Of a stretch of DNA of 44,145 nucleotides, positions 6,479 to 17,215 are shown piece after piece. The translations under genes and the position numbers were made by a program. The stretch spans positions 1-44,145 of the forward strand of contig NSLH01000022.1 in the NCBI GenBank assembly GCA_002763895.1, read 5' to 3'. Under the pieces are notes generated by a model. That model did not search any database. It was not told where the DNA came from and saw only the letters and a program-made list of their open reading frames with translations. This stretch comes from [Chlorobium] sp. 445. Lineage in GTDB: Bacteria > Bacteroidota > Chlorobiia > Chlorobiales > Thermochlorobacteraceae. The stretch's first letter is position 1. Every line of letters starts with the position of its first letter.

Positions 6479-7795
6479 ATGAGCAAATTCGTCTTTTACT
6501 TCAACCTTGCGCGACTTGCGCTGTTTCAAATCTCTTTTGGCATTATCTACGCGATTCTCACCGATACACTAAACCGCGTAATGACAATTGAGCTGGGCAT
6601 TGCAGCGGCACTTGTTGGTGCGCTCATTGGTATTCGTGAACTGATGGTGCTTCTAGGTGTGAAAATTTGGGCGGGCAATCTCTCCGATAAGACACACTTT
6701 TTTGGCTACAAACGCACACCCTTTATTCTGGGAGGCTTGGTGCTCTGCTGCATGATGTTCCCACTGATTGCGCCGCTTGCAATTAAGATGCAGACAAATT
6801 TCTGGCCTAACTTACTGTTGCTGATTGCAGTCTTCACAGTGTTCGGGATAGGTTACCATGCTTCACTGACAACCTACTACGCCTTAATTGCTGATTATGC
6901 CGGCGAAAAATCGCTGAGCAAAGTTGCAGCCATTAGTTGGATTTTGATGGTGCTCTCTGGCATCTTTACAGCGGTGGCAATGAAGAAAGCCTTAGAAGAT
7001 TTTACGACCGATAAGCTTATTGCGGCAATGCAAACTGCAACAATGGTTTCATTTCTCATTGGCACATTGACCACGATTGGACTAGAACGCCGCTACCAAG
7101 AACCCACCCAGCAAAGCGATGCCCCACTCACATTTTTGCAATCACTGGCACTTATTAACGACTCTCCAATGACAAAAGGGTTTTTCTTCTATGTCTTCAT
7201 CTCCATTTTTGCCGCGTTTGGCAATGAACTTGTTATGGAGCCTTTTGGTGCCGATGTGCATGGTCTGACCGTCGCTGAAACCACCAATTTCAGACCTTAT
7301 CTTGGCGGCTCGCAGTTGATTTTCATGCTGATTACAGGCTTTACGATTCAGTATGTTGGCTTAAAAAATGCCATTGCGTTTGGCAATACCGTAGCAGCGA
7401 TTGGGTTTTTCATTTTAATTGCTTCTGGACTGCTGCATTACAAACTTTTGCTCTATGTCGGACTTGTTGTTGTCGGTATTGGTTTAGGATGCTGCACAGT
7501 AGGAAACATCATCTTCATGATTTCCATGCATGCAGGGCGTTCGGGACTTTACATTGGGCTTTGGGGCACAGCACAGAGCCTTGCCAACTTTTCAGGTGAG
7601 CTTGGAATGGGCGCAATTCGCGACATATTAATACATTGGTTCCCTAATCCGATGGTAGCCTATGGCGCGGTGTTTTTGCTAGAAATAGTGGCATTCAGTA
7701 TTGCGACGCTCATGCTGCCAAGGTTCTCGCAAGAAAAATTCGAAGCCGAAAGCAGAGTCTCACTGGAGCGAGTGCTGGCGGTTGCCGCCGATTGA
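6479..7795 (+). CDS. PucC/LhaA-like (BCH family) major facilitator protein
   Basis: About 12 membrane helices in 438 aa. It belongs to the MFS branch that contains PucC, LhaA and Bch2, proteins linked to assembly of bacteriochlorophyll-binding antenna or reaction-centre complexes. The signature region (ELMVLLGVKIWAGNLSDK, then GYKRTPFILGG) follows helix 2, as in PucC. Assignment is by family resemblance and by context: a thioesterase 31 bp downstream, then an NmrA-like SDR and the reaction-centre cytochrome pscC. The cargo, chlorophyll or otherwise, cannot be read from the sequence. The ATG at 6479 has no Shine-Dalgarno sequence. Confidence 0.82.
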   Translation: MSKFVFYFNLARLALFQISFGIIYAILTDTLNRVMTIELGIAAALVGALIGIRELMVLLGVKIWAGNLSDKTHFFGYKRTPFILGGLVLCCMMFPLIAPLAIKMQTNFWPNLLLLIAVFTVFGIGYHASLTTYYALIADYAGEKSLSKVAAISWILMVLSGIFTAVAMKKALEDFTTDKLIAAMQTATMVSFLIGTLTTIGLERRYQEPTQQSDAPLTFLQSLALINDSPMTKGFFFYVFISIFAAFGNELVMEPFGADVHGLTVAETTNFRPYLGGSQLIFMLITGFTIQYVGLKNAIAFGNTVAAIGFFILIASGLLHYKLLLYVGLVVVGIGLGCCTVGNIIFMISMHAGRSGLYIGLWGTAQSLANFSGELGMGAIRDILIHWFPNPMVAYGAVFLLEIVAFSIATLMLPRFSQEKFEAESRVSLERVLAVAAD

Positions 7796-8287: not shown

Positions 8288-8294
8288 CTTGACC

Positions 8295-9287
8295 ATGAAA
8301 AATGTCCTCATTATTGGTACAACAGGCGTTTTAGGCAGGGAACTCGTGCCACGCCTCAAAGCCAAAGGATATCAGGTACGCGGGCTTGTACGCCCTGAGT
8401 CCAAAGAAAAATTAGAAGCTGCACGCGCAGCAGGGCTACCAGAGTTTGAGGTTGCTTTTGGCAACATTATGGACAAGGCGAGCTTAGTGCAAGCCATGCA
8501 GGGAATGGATGTCGTGATTTCTTGTGTGAGCGCAGGACAAGACCGTACAGCTCAATCGCGTGGCAATGCAGAGCACTTCGGACAAATGAATGCCATTGAA
8601 GCCGCAAAAGAGACAGGCGTAAAGCAGTTTATTTTTACTTCGACACTCTTTCCTAAAAACTCTCTCGGATACAGTTTCGTCTGGGCAAAGCTAATGACAG
8701 AGGAAAAACTACGTGAAAGCGGGCTAACCTACACGATTTTCCGTCCATGCGGATTTTTCTACGAGCTCTATTACAGAGGCGAGCCGTTTGTTCAAGCCAC
8801 AAACATCTTTCCCATTCTCGGTGATGGCAAAACCACGACGCAAATGCTTGCAGAGCAAGATGTGGCAGCAATGTATGTTGCAGCAATTGGCAACCCAGAG
8901 TGCTTGAACAAAACACTGGAAATTGGTGGTGGTAGACTCATGACTTTTAATGATCTCATTGAAGAGTGGTCGAAGGTGAGAATGAAGTATGAAGGCAAGC
9001 CTGTTGTAGCGTTCCACATTCCTGTAACGCCGCTACGTATCTTTGCTGAAGCCGTCAAGCCTTTCTGGGAGCAAGCGTGGGGACTAGTGCATCTCTTAGA
9101 TTTTAGTTACGACAATATGGCGTGCGACATGACAGAACCTAAGCGCATCTTGGGCATCGATCGCCTGATGACGCTGGAGGAATACATCACAGAAGCCTAT
9201 GAGAAAAAATATGCCGGGCGGCTTCATCAGGCAACAAGTGCAACAAGTGAGCACTTGACATCTGAACAAGTCTCTCACACGGCATAA
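8295..9287 (+). CDS. NAD(P)-binding SDR, NmrA/Ycf39/divinyl-reductase-like
   Basis: Atypical short-chain dehydrogenase of about 330 aa with a Rossmann glycine motif at the very N-terminus (IIGTTGVLGRELV). RPCGFFYE and LGDGKTTTQMLAEQDVAAM match the later core of NmrA-like, Ycf39-like and 8-vinyl-reductase (BciA/DVR) proteins. It lacks the fuller BciA signature I would expect around the RAKLKFE region (FVWAKLMTEEKL here), so I do not call it bciA. Its position between the PucC-like gene and pscC suggests a role in bacteriochlorophyll synthesis or complex assembly. The C-terminal tail is Ser/Thr-rich and may be disordered. Confidence 0.72.
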   Translation: MKNVLIIGTTGVLGRELVPRLKAKGYQVRGLVRPESKEKLEAARAAGLPEFEVAFGNIMDKASLVQAMQGMDVVISCVSAGQDRTAQSRGNAEHFGQMNAIEAAKETGVKQFIFTSTLFPKNSLGYSFVWAKLMTEEKLRESGLTYTIFRPCGFFYELYYRGEPFVQATNIFPILGDGKTTTQMLAEQDVAAMYVAAIGNPECLNKTLEIGGGRLMTFNDLIEEWSKVRMKYEGKPVVAFHIPVTPLRIFAEAVKPFWEQAWGLVHLLDFSYDNMACDMTEPKRILGIDRLMTLEEYITEAYEKKYAGRLHQATSATSEHLTSEQVSHTA

Positions 9288-9564: not shown

Positions 9565-10563
9565 ATGGACAGATCATCAATTAAGCTCTTCCTTGCAGTC
9601 GTGCTCGGTATCTTGACAATCTTTGTCATTTATCTAGCAGTTGCAGCATGGAATGGCGTTCCCGTCAGTAAAGTCGGCTATACTTACATTAGATACGTTG
9701 CGCTGTTTCTGGGCGCCAGTCTAACGGTGTGGATTGCTGGCAAATTCGTACAGCAGTACAATTCAGGGTGGTTCCTGCCAATTATTTTCGTCGGCATGGC
9801 ATCTATCTTCTTTGCGTGGATCGGGGTAGTGGCTACCAACCCGCGTGAAGTCAGAGTCTTCAAGGATGGCAGCCCTGCACCACGTACCGTTGCGCAACTT
9901 AACGGCGAAGAGCCAGTGCCTGCTACACCTGCAAGCGAGGTAACCCCGCCAGCTTTGACCTCTGTCGATGCCGCCAAAGCTGAGTACGATGAGTTAATGA
10001 AGAAATACGACTTCCCTGAAAAGTATCGCCAATTCGATGAAACCTTTATCGTATCCGAATCAAAGGTTAACGAATTTGTGGCGCAAATGCTCGCTTCCAA
10101 AAATTCTAAAGGTGAAGCCATCAAGGTAGAAGATGTTGATGTCTTCAAAATTCAGAACTACCTGATGAAGGAATTTTTGAAGCGTAAGGAAGAAAAGGAA
10201 AAGAAAGCCTCAGAAGCGACTTCCGCTGTCAATGCCCCTGCGCCAGCAACGGTTGCTGCTGCTGAGCCAGCTCCAGCTGATGAACCTGCGGCACCTGCTG
10301 AAGCAGTAGTCGTACCAGCCTCTGGTGGACAAGATGCACTAGCTTATGAAGCACTCTACAAAAAGAAGTGTGCTAGTTGCCATTCGCTGAGTGCCAATGC
10401 AGGCAAGATGCGCCAAAAGTGGATGAAAGATGATGCGAAAACGCTGGAACTTGTCCAATGGATGCAGCGCCTTGCAAAACAAGATCGCTCCAAAGCCTTC
10501 ACCGATGATGAAGCTAAGAAAATCGCAGCGTTCATCAGAGCGCCCGGCGCAAAACTTTACTAG
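9565..10563 (+). CDS. pscC: Reaction-centre cytochrome c (PscC-like) with extended linker
   Basis: Donates electrons to the special pair of the type-1 (P840) reaction centre in Chlorobiota. Three membrane helices (about 7-29, 38-60 and 68-90) are followed by an exported C-terminal c-type haem domain with CASCH at 269-273, the known PscC (cytochrome c-z) architecture. At 332 aa it is far longer than the roughly 206 aa I recall for Chlorobaculum PscC. The extra length is a charged helical segment (about 135-215) and an Ala/Pro-rich tether (about 216-255). The start is ATG 9565; the frame is open upstream from a GTG at 9508, but that adds residues before the first helix. The axial Met may be one of those in KMRQKWM. 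A terminator follows. Confidence 0.82.
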   Translation: MDRSSIKLFLAVVLGILTIFVIYLAVAAWNGVPVSKVGYTYIRYVALFLGASLTVWIAGKFVQQYNSGWFLPIIFVGMASIFFAWIGVVATNPREVRVFKDGSPAPRTVAQLNGEEPVPATPASEVTPPALTSVDAAKAEYDELMKKYDFPEKYRQFDETFIVSESKVNEFVAQMLASKNSKGEAIKVEDVDVFKIQNYLMKEFLKRKEEKEKKASEATSAVNAPAPATVAAAEPAPADEPAAPAEAVVVPASGGQDALAYEALYKKKCASCHSLSANAGKMRQKWMKDDAKTLELVQWMQRLAKQDRSKAFTDDEAKKIAAFIRAPGAKLY

Positions 10564-11756: not shown

Positions 11757-12442
11757 TGATTGAACTCAAAGACGTTGTCAAAATCTACAACGAAAAAAAC
11801 TGCACCAGTCTATGCGCTTGCAGGGGTCTCACTCAAGATTGAGCGGGCCGAACTTGTAGCACTCATGGGCAGTTCGGGCAGTGGCAAGACCACAATGCTG
11901 AACATTGTGTCGGCAATTGACAAACCGACGCGCGGCACCGTGAAAATTGATGGAACGGATATCAGCATGATGACCGAGCGCGAACTGACGGCATTTCGAC
12001 GCAAAAAAATTGGGGTCATCTTCCAATTCTTCAATTTGATGCCCACACTCACCGTACTGGAAAATGTGCTTTTGCCAAGCACGCTGGCGCGCTTACCTGA
12101 AAAAGAAACACAGCGCGTGCATTGATGCTCATTGAACGCGTAGGACTTTCACATCGGCTGTCGCATAAGCCCTTTGAACTCTCAGGCGGAGAAATGCAGC
12201 GCACCGCAATTGCCCGCGCTTTGATGAACAATCCTGATATCATTATTGCTGACGAACCAACGGGAAATTTGGACTCAAAAAATGCGGCACAAATTTTGGA
12301 CCTTGTAGAAGAGCTAGCGCGTGAGCAAAAAAAGACATTCATCATTGCCACCCATGCCAGTGATGTAGCGCAAATCGCGGACCGTACAATTGTCATGCGC
12401 GATGGACAAATCGTGGAAGATGAACTTGCCATAAGACGCTGA
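11757..12442 (+). CDS. LolD/MacB-type ABC transporter ATPase (two frameshifts)
   Basis: ATP-binding subunit of an ABC exporter of the LolD/MacB/FtsE group. Reconstructed order: an N-terminus from ATG 11757 (MIELKDVVKIYNEK), Walker A GSSGSGKTT, the Q-loop in FQFFNLMPTLT, signature LSGGEMQR, Walker B IIIADEPTGNLDS and the H-loop ATHAS. About 228 aa in total, normal for LolD. Two shifts break it: one in a run of seven A at 11793-11799 and one near 12108-12118. The downstream nadE starts 33 bp later. No permease gene is adjacent; the LolC/E pair at 2247-4795 is a possible partner. Confidence 0.82.
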
Positions 12443-14364: not shown

Positions 14365-17215
14365 TTAGCTTTTTTTGAGATACTCACGCAGGTATTTGGC
14401 AGTGTAGGAGCGCTCTGACATAGCAACCTCTTCGGGTGTGCCTTGCGCAATAATTTCACCACCACGCTCACCTGCCTCTGGTCCTAAATCAATAATCCAG
14501 TCCGCTTGCTTGATGAGGTCAAGATTGTGTTCAATGACGACAAGTGTGTTGTTTTGCTCAAGAAGTCGATTGAAGCAGGCGATGAGTTTTCGAATATCAT
14601 CAAAGTGCAAGCCTGTCGTCGGCTCATCGAAGATAAACAAGCTATTTTTGGATTCACTGCTAGCGATGTGATAAGCAAGTTTCAGGCGCTGGGCTTCGCC
14701 ACCAGAAAGTGTACTGCCAGATTGACCGAGCTGCAAATAATCTAAGCCAACTTCCTGCAAGATTTTGAGTTTTTTTACGATGTTCTTTTGGTCGCTAAAA
14801 ACTCGGCAGCTTCGGCAACTGTCATCTCCAACACATCGGCAATAGATTTGTCTTTGTAGCGGGCATTCAAGGTATCGCTTTTGTAGCGCTTGCCGTTGCA
14901 AGCCTCACAGATGGTTTCAACGTCTGCAAGAAATTGCATCTCAACGCGAACAATGCCTTCACCTGCACAGGCTTCGCAGCGACCCCCCGGAATGTTAAAC
15001 GAGAAATAGCCTGCATCCCAGCCTTTCATTTTGGCATATGGGGTTTGGGCAAACAGCAAGCGAATGTCATCAAAGACTTTCATGTAAGTAGCTGGATTGC
15101 TGCGACTGGAGCGTCCGATTGGCGACTGGTCGACAATCTCGACTTTCTCGACAAGGTGTGCGCCACGCAGCGCTTTGTGAGTGCCAACTTTTTCACTGGT
15201 GCCGACTTTTTGTTTAAGCAAACCCAAGTAGAGAATGTCGTGCACCAGCGTAGATTTGCCTGAGCCGCTTACGCCCGTTACACAGGTCATGACGCCAAGC
15301 GGAAATTTGACCGTGAGGTTTTTGAGATTATTCTCGAGCGCGCCCTCAATTTCAATTGCCCTTGAAAAATCCACGGCGCGTCGCTGTTGAGGCACAGCAA
15401 TAGCATGTTTGTTGTAAAGATATTTTCCGGTAAGTGAATGAGGCGATTGTACCACGTCGGCAGGTGGACCTTGAAAGACAAGCGAGCCGCCATGGCGACC
15501 AGCACCTATACCCAAATCAATGAGTTCATCAGCAGCTTCGATAATTTCGCGGTCGTGCTCAACAACGACAACCGTATTGCCAATATCGCGCAAGCGTTTG
15601 AGAATTTGAATCAGCCGTGCGGAATCGTGTTGATGCAGTCCAATCGAGGGCTCGTCCAAAATGTAAATGGAGCCCATGAGTGAAGAGCCGAGCGAAGTTG
15701 CTAAGTTGATGCGTTGCGACTCTCCACCTGAGAGTGTGTTCGAGGGACGATTCAGTGTCAGGTAGTCTAAGCCTACTTCAACCAGATAGCCCAAGCGTTT
15801 TTCTAGTTCATTCAAAATGGTTTGTGCAATCTCTTTATCGAAGCGCGAGATTTCAAGGTGTTTGATAAACTCATAGGCTTCAGCGATGCTCATTTGCACA
15901 ATGTCGAAAATCGTTTTGCCGGCAACTTTCACATACAAGGCTTCTTTGCGCAAGCGAGAGCCACCGCAGTCGGGGCAAGTGGAGTAGCCGCGGTAGCGAT
16001 TAAGCAGCACGCGGTAGTGCATCTTGTATTGCGCTTCTTTTTCAACTTCTTCAAAGAAGCCGTTGATGCCAAGAAAGCCATCTTTCGGTGCACCTTGCCA
16101 AATCAGTTTTTGGCACTAGCAGGAAGTTTGCTGTAGGGCATATCGAGCGGAAGGTCATATTTTGGTGCGATTCGAATGAGCGCACGCAAATGCTGAGAAT
16201 GCTTATCTGAGTTCCAACAGACGATGGCGCCATCGCGCAAGCACAAGGCTTTGTTCGGCACCACTGCATCTTCATCGATGCCAGCCACACGCCCAAGACC
16301 TTGACAAGTTGGACATGCCCCAAAGGGCGAATTAAACGCAAAAAGCTGAGGCGTGGGTTCTTCGTATTCGACACCGTTGAGTTCAAACTTATCGCTAAAG
16401 ACATAATCTCTGCCTTCCAAAACACGCACGGTGCAATAACCATTCGATTCAGCAAAAGCGGTTTCAACAGCTTCCGTGATGCGTGAGAAAGTCTCATCGT
16501 TGTGTTTGAGAACTAACCTATCGACCAGCACAAGCAACTTTTCTTGCTCTTTCTTTGCAAGTGCAAGCAATTTTTTTCATCGTCTGGACGACTGACATCT
16601 AAAAGGGTTTTTCCATGAACAATACGGTAAAAGCCTTTTTGTTTGAGGGTTTGGATTTCTTCTGTGAGCGTGCGGTCTTTTTTTCTTTTCGTCTTTGTGA
16701 TGCGGAAAGGGAAAGCAGATGTAGAACTTGATGCCTTCTTCCAAAAGCCGCATTTGAATCAAGACATCTTCGGGCGAGTGCTTGAGCACCATTTCATGTG
16801 TATCGGGTGAATAGGTTTTCCCAATGCGTGCAAAGAGCAGTCGCAGGTAGTCATAGATTTCCGTAACTGTACCAACGGTTGAGCGTGGATTTTTAGAAAT
16901 GGTTTTCTGTTCAATTGCAATAGCAGGCGCGATGCCAGAGATAAAATCTACATCAGGCTTTTGCATGCGCTCGAGAAACTGGCGAATGTAAGCAGAGAGC
17001 GATTCCACATACCGGCGATGCCCTTCCGCATACAGCGTGTCGAAAGCAAGGCTAGATTTCCCTGAGCCACTGACGCCTGTGATGACAACCAGCTTATTGC
17101 GCGGAATAACAACATCAAGATTTTTGAGGTTGTGTGTTCTTGCCCCTTTGATGAAAATCCCATTTACAGCTCGGCTGGTCTGAGAAGCCAACGGCGTGTG
17201 AACTTCTGCACTCAT
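14365..17215 (-). CDS. uvrA: Excinuclease ABC subunit A (four frameshifts)
   Basis: DNA-damage recognition ATPase of nucleotide excision repair. Visible parts are Walker [13 protein letters not shown] near the N-terminus, the zinc cysteines of CPTCQG and CPDCGGSRL, signature [10 protein letters not shown], a second Walker [11 protein letters not shown], the [14 protein letters not shown] zinc module and a second signature [10 protein letters not shown]. Reconstructed length is about 950 aa, normal. Shifts occur in a T run at 16678-16684 (one extra), a T run at 16571-16577 (one missing), near 16103-16108, and in a T run at 14786-14789 (one missing). Each can be repaired by one base to restore family sequence, so the gene is probably intact in the organism. 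Confidence 0.9.

Follow-up and report, generated by a model that had tools for sequence, protein, structure and literature searches.

How can the mobile haem of PscC serve P840 while drawing its electrons from separate membrane complexes? This question is raised by an open reading frame of [Chlorobium] sp. 445 (GenBank assembly GCA_002763895.1) in contig NSLH01000022.1, of which positions 1 to 44,145 (44,145 nucleotides) form the window analysed here. In Chlorobaculum tepidum, a mobile PscC haem domain docks at the PscA Trp601 pair near P840 (PMC9529944, PMC10968294, PMC11108878), and Lys168 and Arg181 of PscC lie at the edge of the haem during docking (PMC10968294). Cryo-EM structures leave this domain unresolved or only poorly resolved (PMC9529944, PMC11108878). 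A sequence-only reading of the window had taken the frame for a PscC of 332 amino acids, against about 206 in Chlorobaculum, and had suggested that the extra sequence provides a longer swinging arm or an added docking module, which would alter the path of electrons to the special pair and perhaps bring a distant donor within range of the haem.

Identification of an elongated PscC

The frame translates without internal stops into 332 residues beginning with MDRSSIK. An alternative GTG start 57 bases upstream of position 9565 would yield 351 residues, but 9565 is the likely start, since the relatives all begin at an equivalent M(D/E/N)(R/K/N)SS. Against the Pfam family PF10643, the protein scores 30 bits (cut-off 27.1), best over its haem domain, which matches model positions 136-212 and also matches PF13442 at 28.1 bits; other PscC of the family score lower against PF10643, with matches that cover the N-terminus or most of the protein. 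This is the sole such gene found in a search of the 2.81-Mb genome, which also encodes pscA (C4:101036), adjoined by a ferredoxin-like pscB (two-cluster 4Fe-4S Pfam match), and fmoA (C15:60283). The score above cut-off, the single copy and the presence of pscA, pscB and fmoA indicate that the protein is, by sequence, a genuine PscC (cytochrome cz) orthologue of a Thermochlorobacter-type green bacterium from hot springs. The earlier assignment, which had been made to hang on pscA and pscB, is thus upheld. The PscC of 'Candidatus Thermochlorobacter aerophilum' is approximately 90% identical.

Upstream of pscC lie genes for a PucC-type transporter (PF03209) and an NmrA/epimerase-like protein (6479-7795 and 8289-9287, both on the forward strand), and this gene order is found, among the loci compared, only within the genus. 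Elsewhere in the window, a uvrA-like gene (14365-17215, reverse strand) and an ABC-transporter ATPase gene (11760-12442, forward strand) are split across frames in what look like frameshifts, assembly errors or real decay.

Domain architecture

The domains of the protein are listed in Table 1, along with two PscC of another type that are considered below. As the sequence-only reading had described, the protein starts with three helices (residues 3-30, 34-65 and 70-91 in the AlphaFold2 model) and ends in a domain with one CxxCH motif (CASCH, residues 269-273). The anchor aligns over its full extent with the Chlorobiaceae PscC N-terminus, MDNxSxxKL...GKMS...WFL, and in a tree of haem domains the C-terminal domain groups with those of canonical PscC (support 95/84). 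In the alignment, M300 corresponds to M182 of the 206-residue form, the Met of the RMQ/WMQ motif conserved in short PscC, and is taken as the axial-ligand position. The length given for Chlorobaculum also proved accurate: the Chlorobaculum chain (PDB 7uea_C) has 206 residues, and Chlorobiaceae PscC range from 206 to 233.

Table 1 Features of the elongated pscC and of the di-haem PscC genes
Feature	Coordinates	Strand	Description	Basis
pscC, elongated, reaction-centre cytochrome c (cytochrome cz / c-551)	9565..10563	+	single copy	PF10643, PF13442; orthologues
Membrane anchor	9565..9849	+	residues 1-95, three helices	AlphaFold2; alignment
Pre-insert linker	9850..9960	+	residues 96-132, conserved (I/P)R(S/T) motif (Arg107)	alignment
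Inserted domain (predicted)	9961..10200	+	residues 133-212, ~80 aa, three helices, charged, no haem motif	AlphaFold2
Flexible tether	10201..10326	+	residues 213-254, Ala/Pro-rich	composition, pLDDT
Cytochrome c domain	10327..10560	+	residues 255-332, single haem	PF10643, PF13442, haem tree
Di-haem PscC (G005)	L089:3052-4032		anchor, haem domain, Ala-rich linker, second CxxCH domain	
Di-haem PscC (G087)	L086:1563-2573		anchor, haem domain, Ala-rich linker, second CxxCH domain	

Compared with the short form, approximately 125 residues are added between the anchor and the haem domain. They had been read as a charged helical segment followed by an Ala/Pro-rich tether, and composition agrees, with 18 D/E and 15 K/R in the segment and 55% A+P in the tether, whose length differs among relatives. 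The linker preceding the insert has low pLDDT and evolves fast (24-86% identity). In the full-length AlphaFold2 model, the insert is well predicted and residues 90-131 and 221-256 are mostly poorly predicted (pLDDT <50 at 221-256), so that the insert probably sits between two flexible stretches. This multi-domain model is loose (pTM 0.29), and a Foldseek search with it was uninformative.

The insert is a predicted domain under purifying selection

Modelled alone, with an alignment of the nine available inserts and no haem-domain rows that could bias the result, the insert reaches a pLDDT of 91.9 and a pTM of 0.78, with a small strand element and three helices, at 2-15, 33-45 and 58-81 in the numbering of the 82-residue construct. 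It is thus predicted to form a discrete, compact folded domain. Ten residues are invariant across the nine sequences, and Cys is absent from every one of them, leaving no CxxCH site for haem attachment. Where synonymous change is unsaturated, which in most pairs it is not, so that the figures rest on few comparisons, dN/dS is approximately 0.06 for the insert and 0.07 for the haem domain. By these rates, purifying selection on the insert is strong and resembles that on the haem domain.

A profile of the insert, searched against 296 genomes of the phylum, found convincing matches nowhere but in the PscC of two families. Many of the weaker matches (E 0.002 or worse) were to proteins of roughly 355 residues from another family; those sampled lack cytochrome features, and the weaker matches were dismissed as chance. 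Nothing significant was returned from Pfam, from the PDB by sequence or by Foldseek, and no relative was found in plasmid and viral collections.

Distribution of PscC arm types

Full-length elongated PscC of 332-343 residues, with the insert, were found in eight of the nine genomes of the Thermochlorobacter-type family, the ninth (81% complete) giving no PscC match. In a genome of the sister family (G276), the end of one contig carries anchor and insert and the end of a second carries a PscC haem domain, apparently the pieces of one split pscC with the insert; evidence for the sister family is this single genome. Conservation across the family and in G276 argues against a chance insertion. Far from being the oddity of one genome, the insert is the norm throughout the Thermochlorobacter-type family and apparently in its sister family as well. 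It had also been asked whether all green sulfur bacteria share the greater length, and they do not: every one of the 28 PscC measured in Chlorobiaceae is short. The stretch between the conserved Arg behind the membrane helices and the CxxCH motif spans 155-166 residues in the Thermochlorobacter-type family, compared with 38 residues from that Arg to the haem Cys in 24 of the 28 Chlorobiaceae and 56-59 in the other four. At L042, L044, L056 and L057, Chlorobiaceae PscC carry approximately 20 extra Ala-rich residues in the linker between anchor and haem, a smaller lengthening of the same arm.

The sequence-only reading had also asked whether Chloroherpeton-like genomes carry the extra segment, but neither of the two Chloroherpeton-type PscC has it. 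In these proteins (327-337 residues), the first haem domain occupies the canonical position and the C-terminus bears a further CxxCH domain (PF13442). Among green bacteria, the PscC arm thus comes in at least three designs: short, with insert and tether, and di-haem. In the open literature searched we found no description of the di-haem type and no text naming Chloroherpeton thalassium together with PscC; Thermochlorobacter and PscC are named together only in a general review. We also considered an ancestral di-haem PscC, in which the insert would correspond to the first Chloroherpeton haem domain and the haem domain of the 332-residue protein to the second, and disfavoured it because the haem tree prefers the PscC type for the family's own haem domain; grouping this domain with the second Chloroherpeton domain is not rejected statistically (AU p = 0.06-0.11).

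In the PscA tree, the Thermochlorobacter-type genomes and G276 fall on one side of a branch with support 100/99. Since the insert-bearing families form one clade, a single gain of the insert suffices. Species relationships are taken from the PscA tree only, an FmoA tree having been set aside because two of its entries were wrong-strand reading frames.

A proposed longer-reaching haem arm

The residues that serve docking in Chlorobaculum tepidum are largely conserved. An equivalent of PscA Trp601 is kept in 14 of the 14 PscA compared, and the alignment places Lys168 at K285 and the axial Met at M300, with Arg181 replaced by W299. With Trp601, Lys168 and the Met retained, the end of the shuttle that does the reducing has probably stayed the same, and the change would lie in the arm; on these alignments, docking on PscA is likely retained. 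Placement of the insert and the haem domain in the periplasm would follow from the topology of known PscC.

We propose that the insert and the long Ala/Pro tether were gained between anchor and haem domain in the common ancestor of the two families. The three-helix anchor would be positioned beside PscA, and the haem domain would, at the periplasmic face, accept an electron from a quinol-oxidising complex, then swing to the twin tryptophans over P840 and re-reduce P840+. The added domain would act as a spacer that moves the pivot of the haem away from the membrane anchor and, together with the longer tether, widens the radius that the haem can sweep: a folded spacer of 80 residues with approximately 40 flexible residues on either side would allow a wider sweep than the short linker. 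The insert is thus most likely a spacer that lengthens the haem arm, although both this role and the wider reach are what we infer from the architecture. We assign a probability of roughly 0.55 to this explanation as a whole, that of a genuine PscC with an inserted spacer domain and a longer-reaching haem arm. Given that the linker already varies from 38 to 59 residues within the Chlorobiaceae, constraint on arm length itself may be loose and part of the change may be neutral.

The genome offers three candidates for what the haem would reach: a Rieske/cytochrome b like that of Chlorobium, the product of a second Rieske/cytochrome b operon, and alternative complex III (ACIII) beside cytochrome oxidase. 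The second operon (L124:7040-11313; G000:C16, about 51039-55312) encodes an unassigned 400-residue membrane protein, a Rieske protein, a cytochrome b and a bd-like membrane protein, the last with an N-terminus like cytochrome bd subunit I and a C-terminal CxxCH domain; it is a candidate for an unusual quinol-oxidising complex beside the Chlorobium-type Rieske/cytochrome b. The ACIII genes (L125:3275-16281; G000:C17) encode a penta-haem ActA-like protein, a mono-haem ActE-like protein and ActD, and adjoin cytochrome oxidase genes.

Ten invariant residues are more than a purely mechanical spacer would need, and they hint at a binding surface. The insert could accordingly be the docking module that the sequence-only reading had also suggested, binding a periplasmic partner (ACIII, the second Rieske/cytochrome b complex or an accessory subunit of the reaction centre) and holding the reaction centre near its electron donor. 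We regard this as a tentative possibility. The highly charged, stably folded character of the domain is in keeping with it, and ActD (PF11821) occurs in every genome where the insert was found and is missing from both Chloroherpeton-type genomes and all Chlorobiaceae genomes of that search. However, insert and ACIII share one branch and represent one joint event with no independent replication; as a single coincidence rather than a statistical association, their co-occurrence is only suggestive. Aerobic life in general would yield the same pattern and, given the adjoining oxidase genes, the acceptor of ACIII is probably the oxidase.

Origin of the insert

The spacer role is compatible with descent of the insert from a second copy of the PscC haem domain, arisen by tandem duplication, which was kept after losing its CxxCH motif and decaying. 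In an ordinary MAFFT alignment, the insert fell on canonical PscC haem domains, with YDELMKKYDFPEKY over the CxxCH helix, and a profile comparison with the protein's own haem domain was collinear (hhalign, P 0.009-0.015), only 2 of 300 column-shuffled controls scoring as high. The order of helices in insert and haem domain is similar in the AlphaFold2 model, and a haem-domain HMM scored above 200 of 200 shuffles for five inserts out of ten, of which a single genus supplies four. These scores are nevertheless very weak (hhalign probability 3-5%); the other, more divergent inserts and the reverse search stayed near chance, Foldseek returned no cytochrome c for the confident insert model, and Pfam gave no cytochrome match. 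We consider a decayed duplicate possible but rather unlikely.

It is highly improbable, and already disfavoured, that the elongation is neutral and without functional consequence: the flanking linkers do evolve fast and vary in length, and some Chlorobiaceae also have longer linkers, but the insert shows conservation and a predicted fold, and purifying selection acts on it no less strongly than on the haem domain. Highly improbable as well is that a haem-less cytochrome relic has come to serve as a docking platform linking the type I reaction centre with ACIII, which, if true, would allow photosynthetic and respiratory chains to share donors.

Comparison with known systems

Natural length variants of PscC offer a testbed for how arm length and added domains affect donor choice and the re-reduction of P840+. 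Furthermore, the genomes of the insert-bearing clade also encode ACIII, and the elongated PscC thus bears on how a type I reaction centre is fitted to an oxygen-respiring cell. In Chloracidobacterium, PscX and PscY are likewise periplasmic cytochromes that donate to a homodimeric type I reaction centre but, compared here by description only, they are a different protein pair with no tethered three-helix PscC (PMC10968294). The Chloroherpeton-type PscC is also longer, with two periplasmic domains parted by an Ala-rich linker; in contrast to the protein described here, its canonical haem domain follows directly after the anchor, its added domain is C-terminal and it has no insert.

The closest counterpart is the PscC of Chlorobaculum tepidum (PF10643; 7uea_C, 3a9f), which likewise is encoded by a single gene and has a three-helix anchor and one CxxCH haem domain. 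The two share Lys168 and the axial-Met position, and their genomes share pscA, pscB and fmoA. They differ in length (332-343 residues in the elongated form, not 206), in the added haem-less domain of 80 residues with its Ala/Pro tether, and in the replacement of Arg181 by Trp. The short linker of approximately 38 residues is typical of Chlorobiaceae PscC and does not define the PF10643 family. The elongated PscC is best described as a variant, confined to one clade, of a well-known subunit, to which a domain predicted to fold and kept by selection has been added, and not as a new kind of system.
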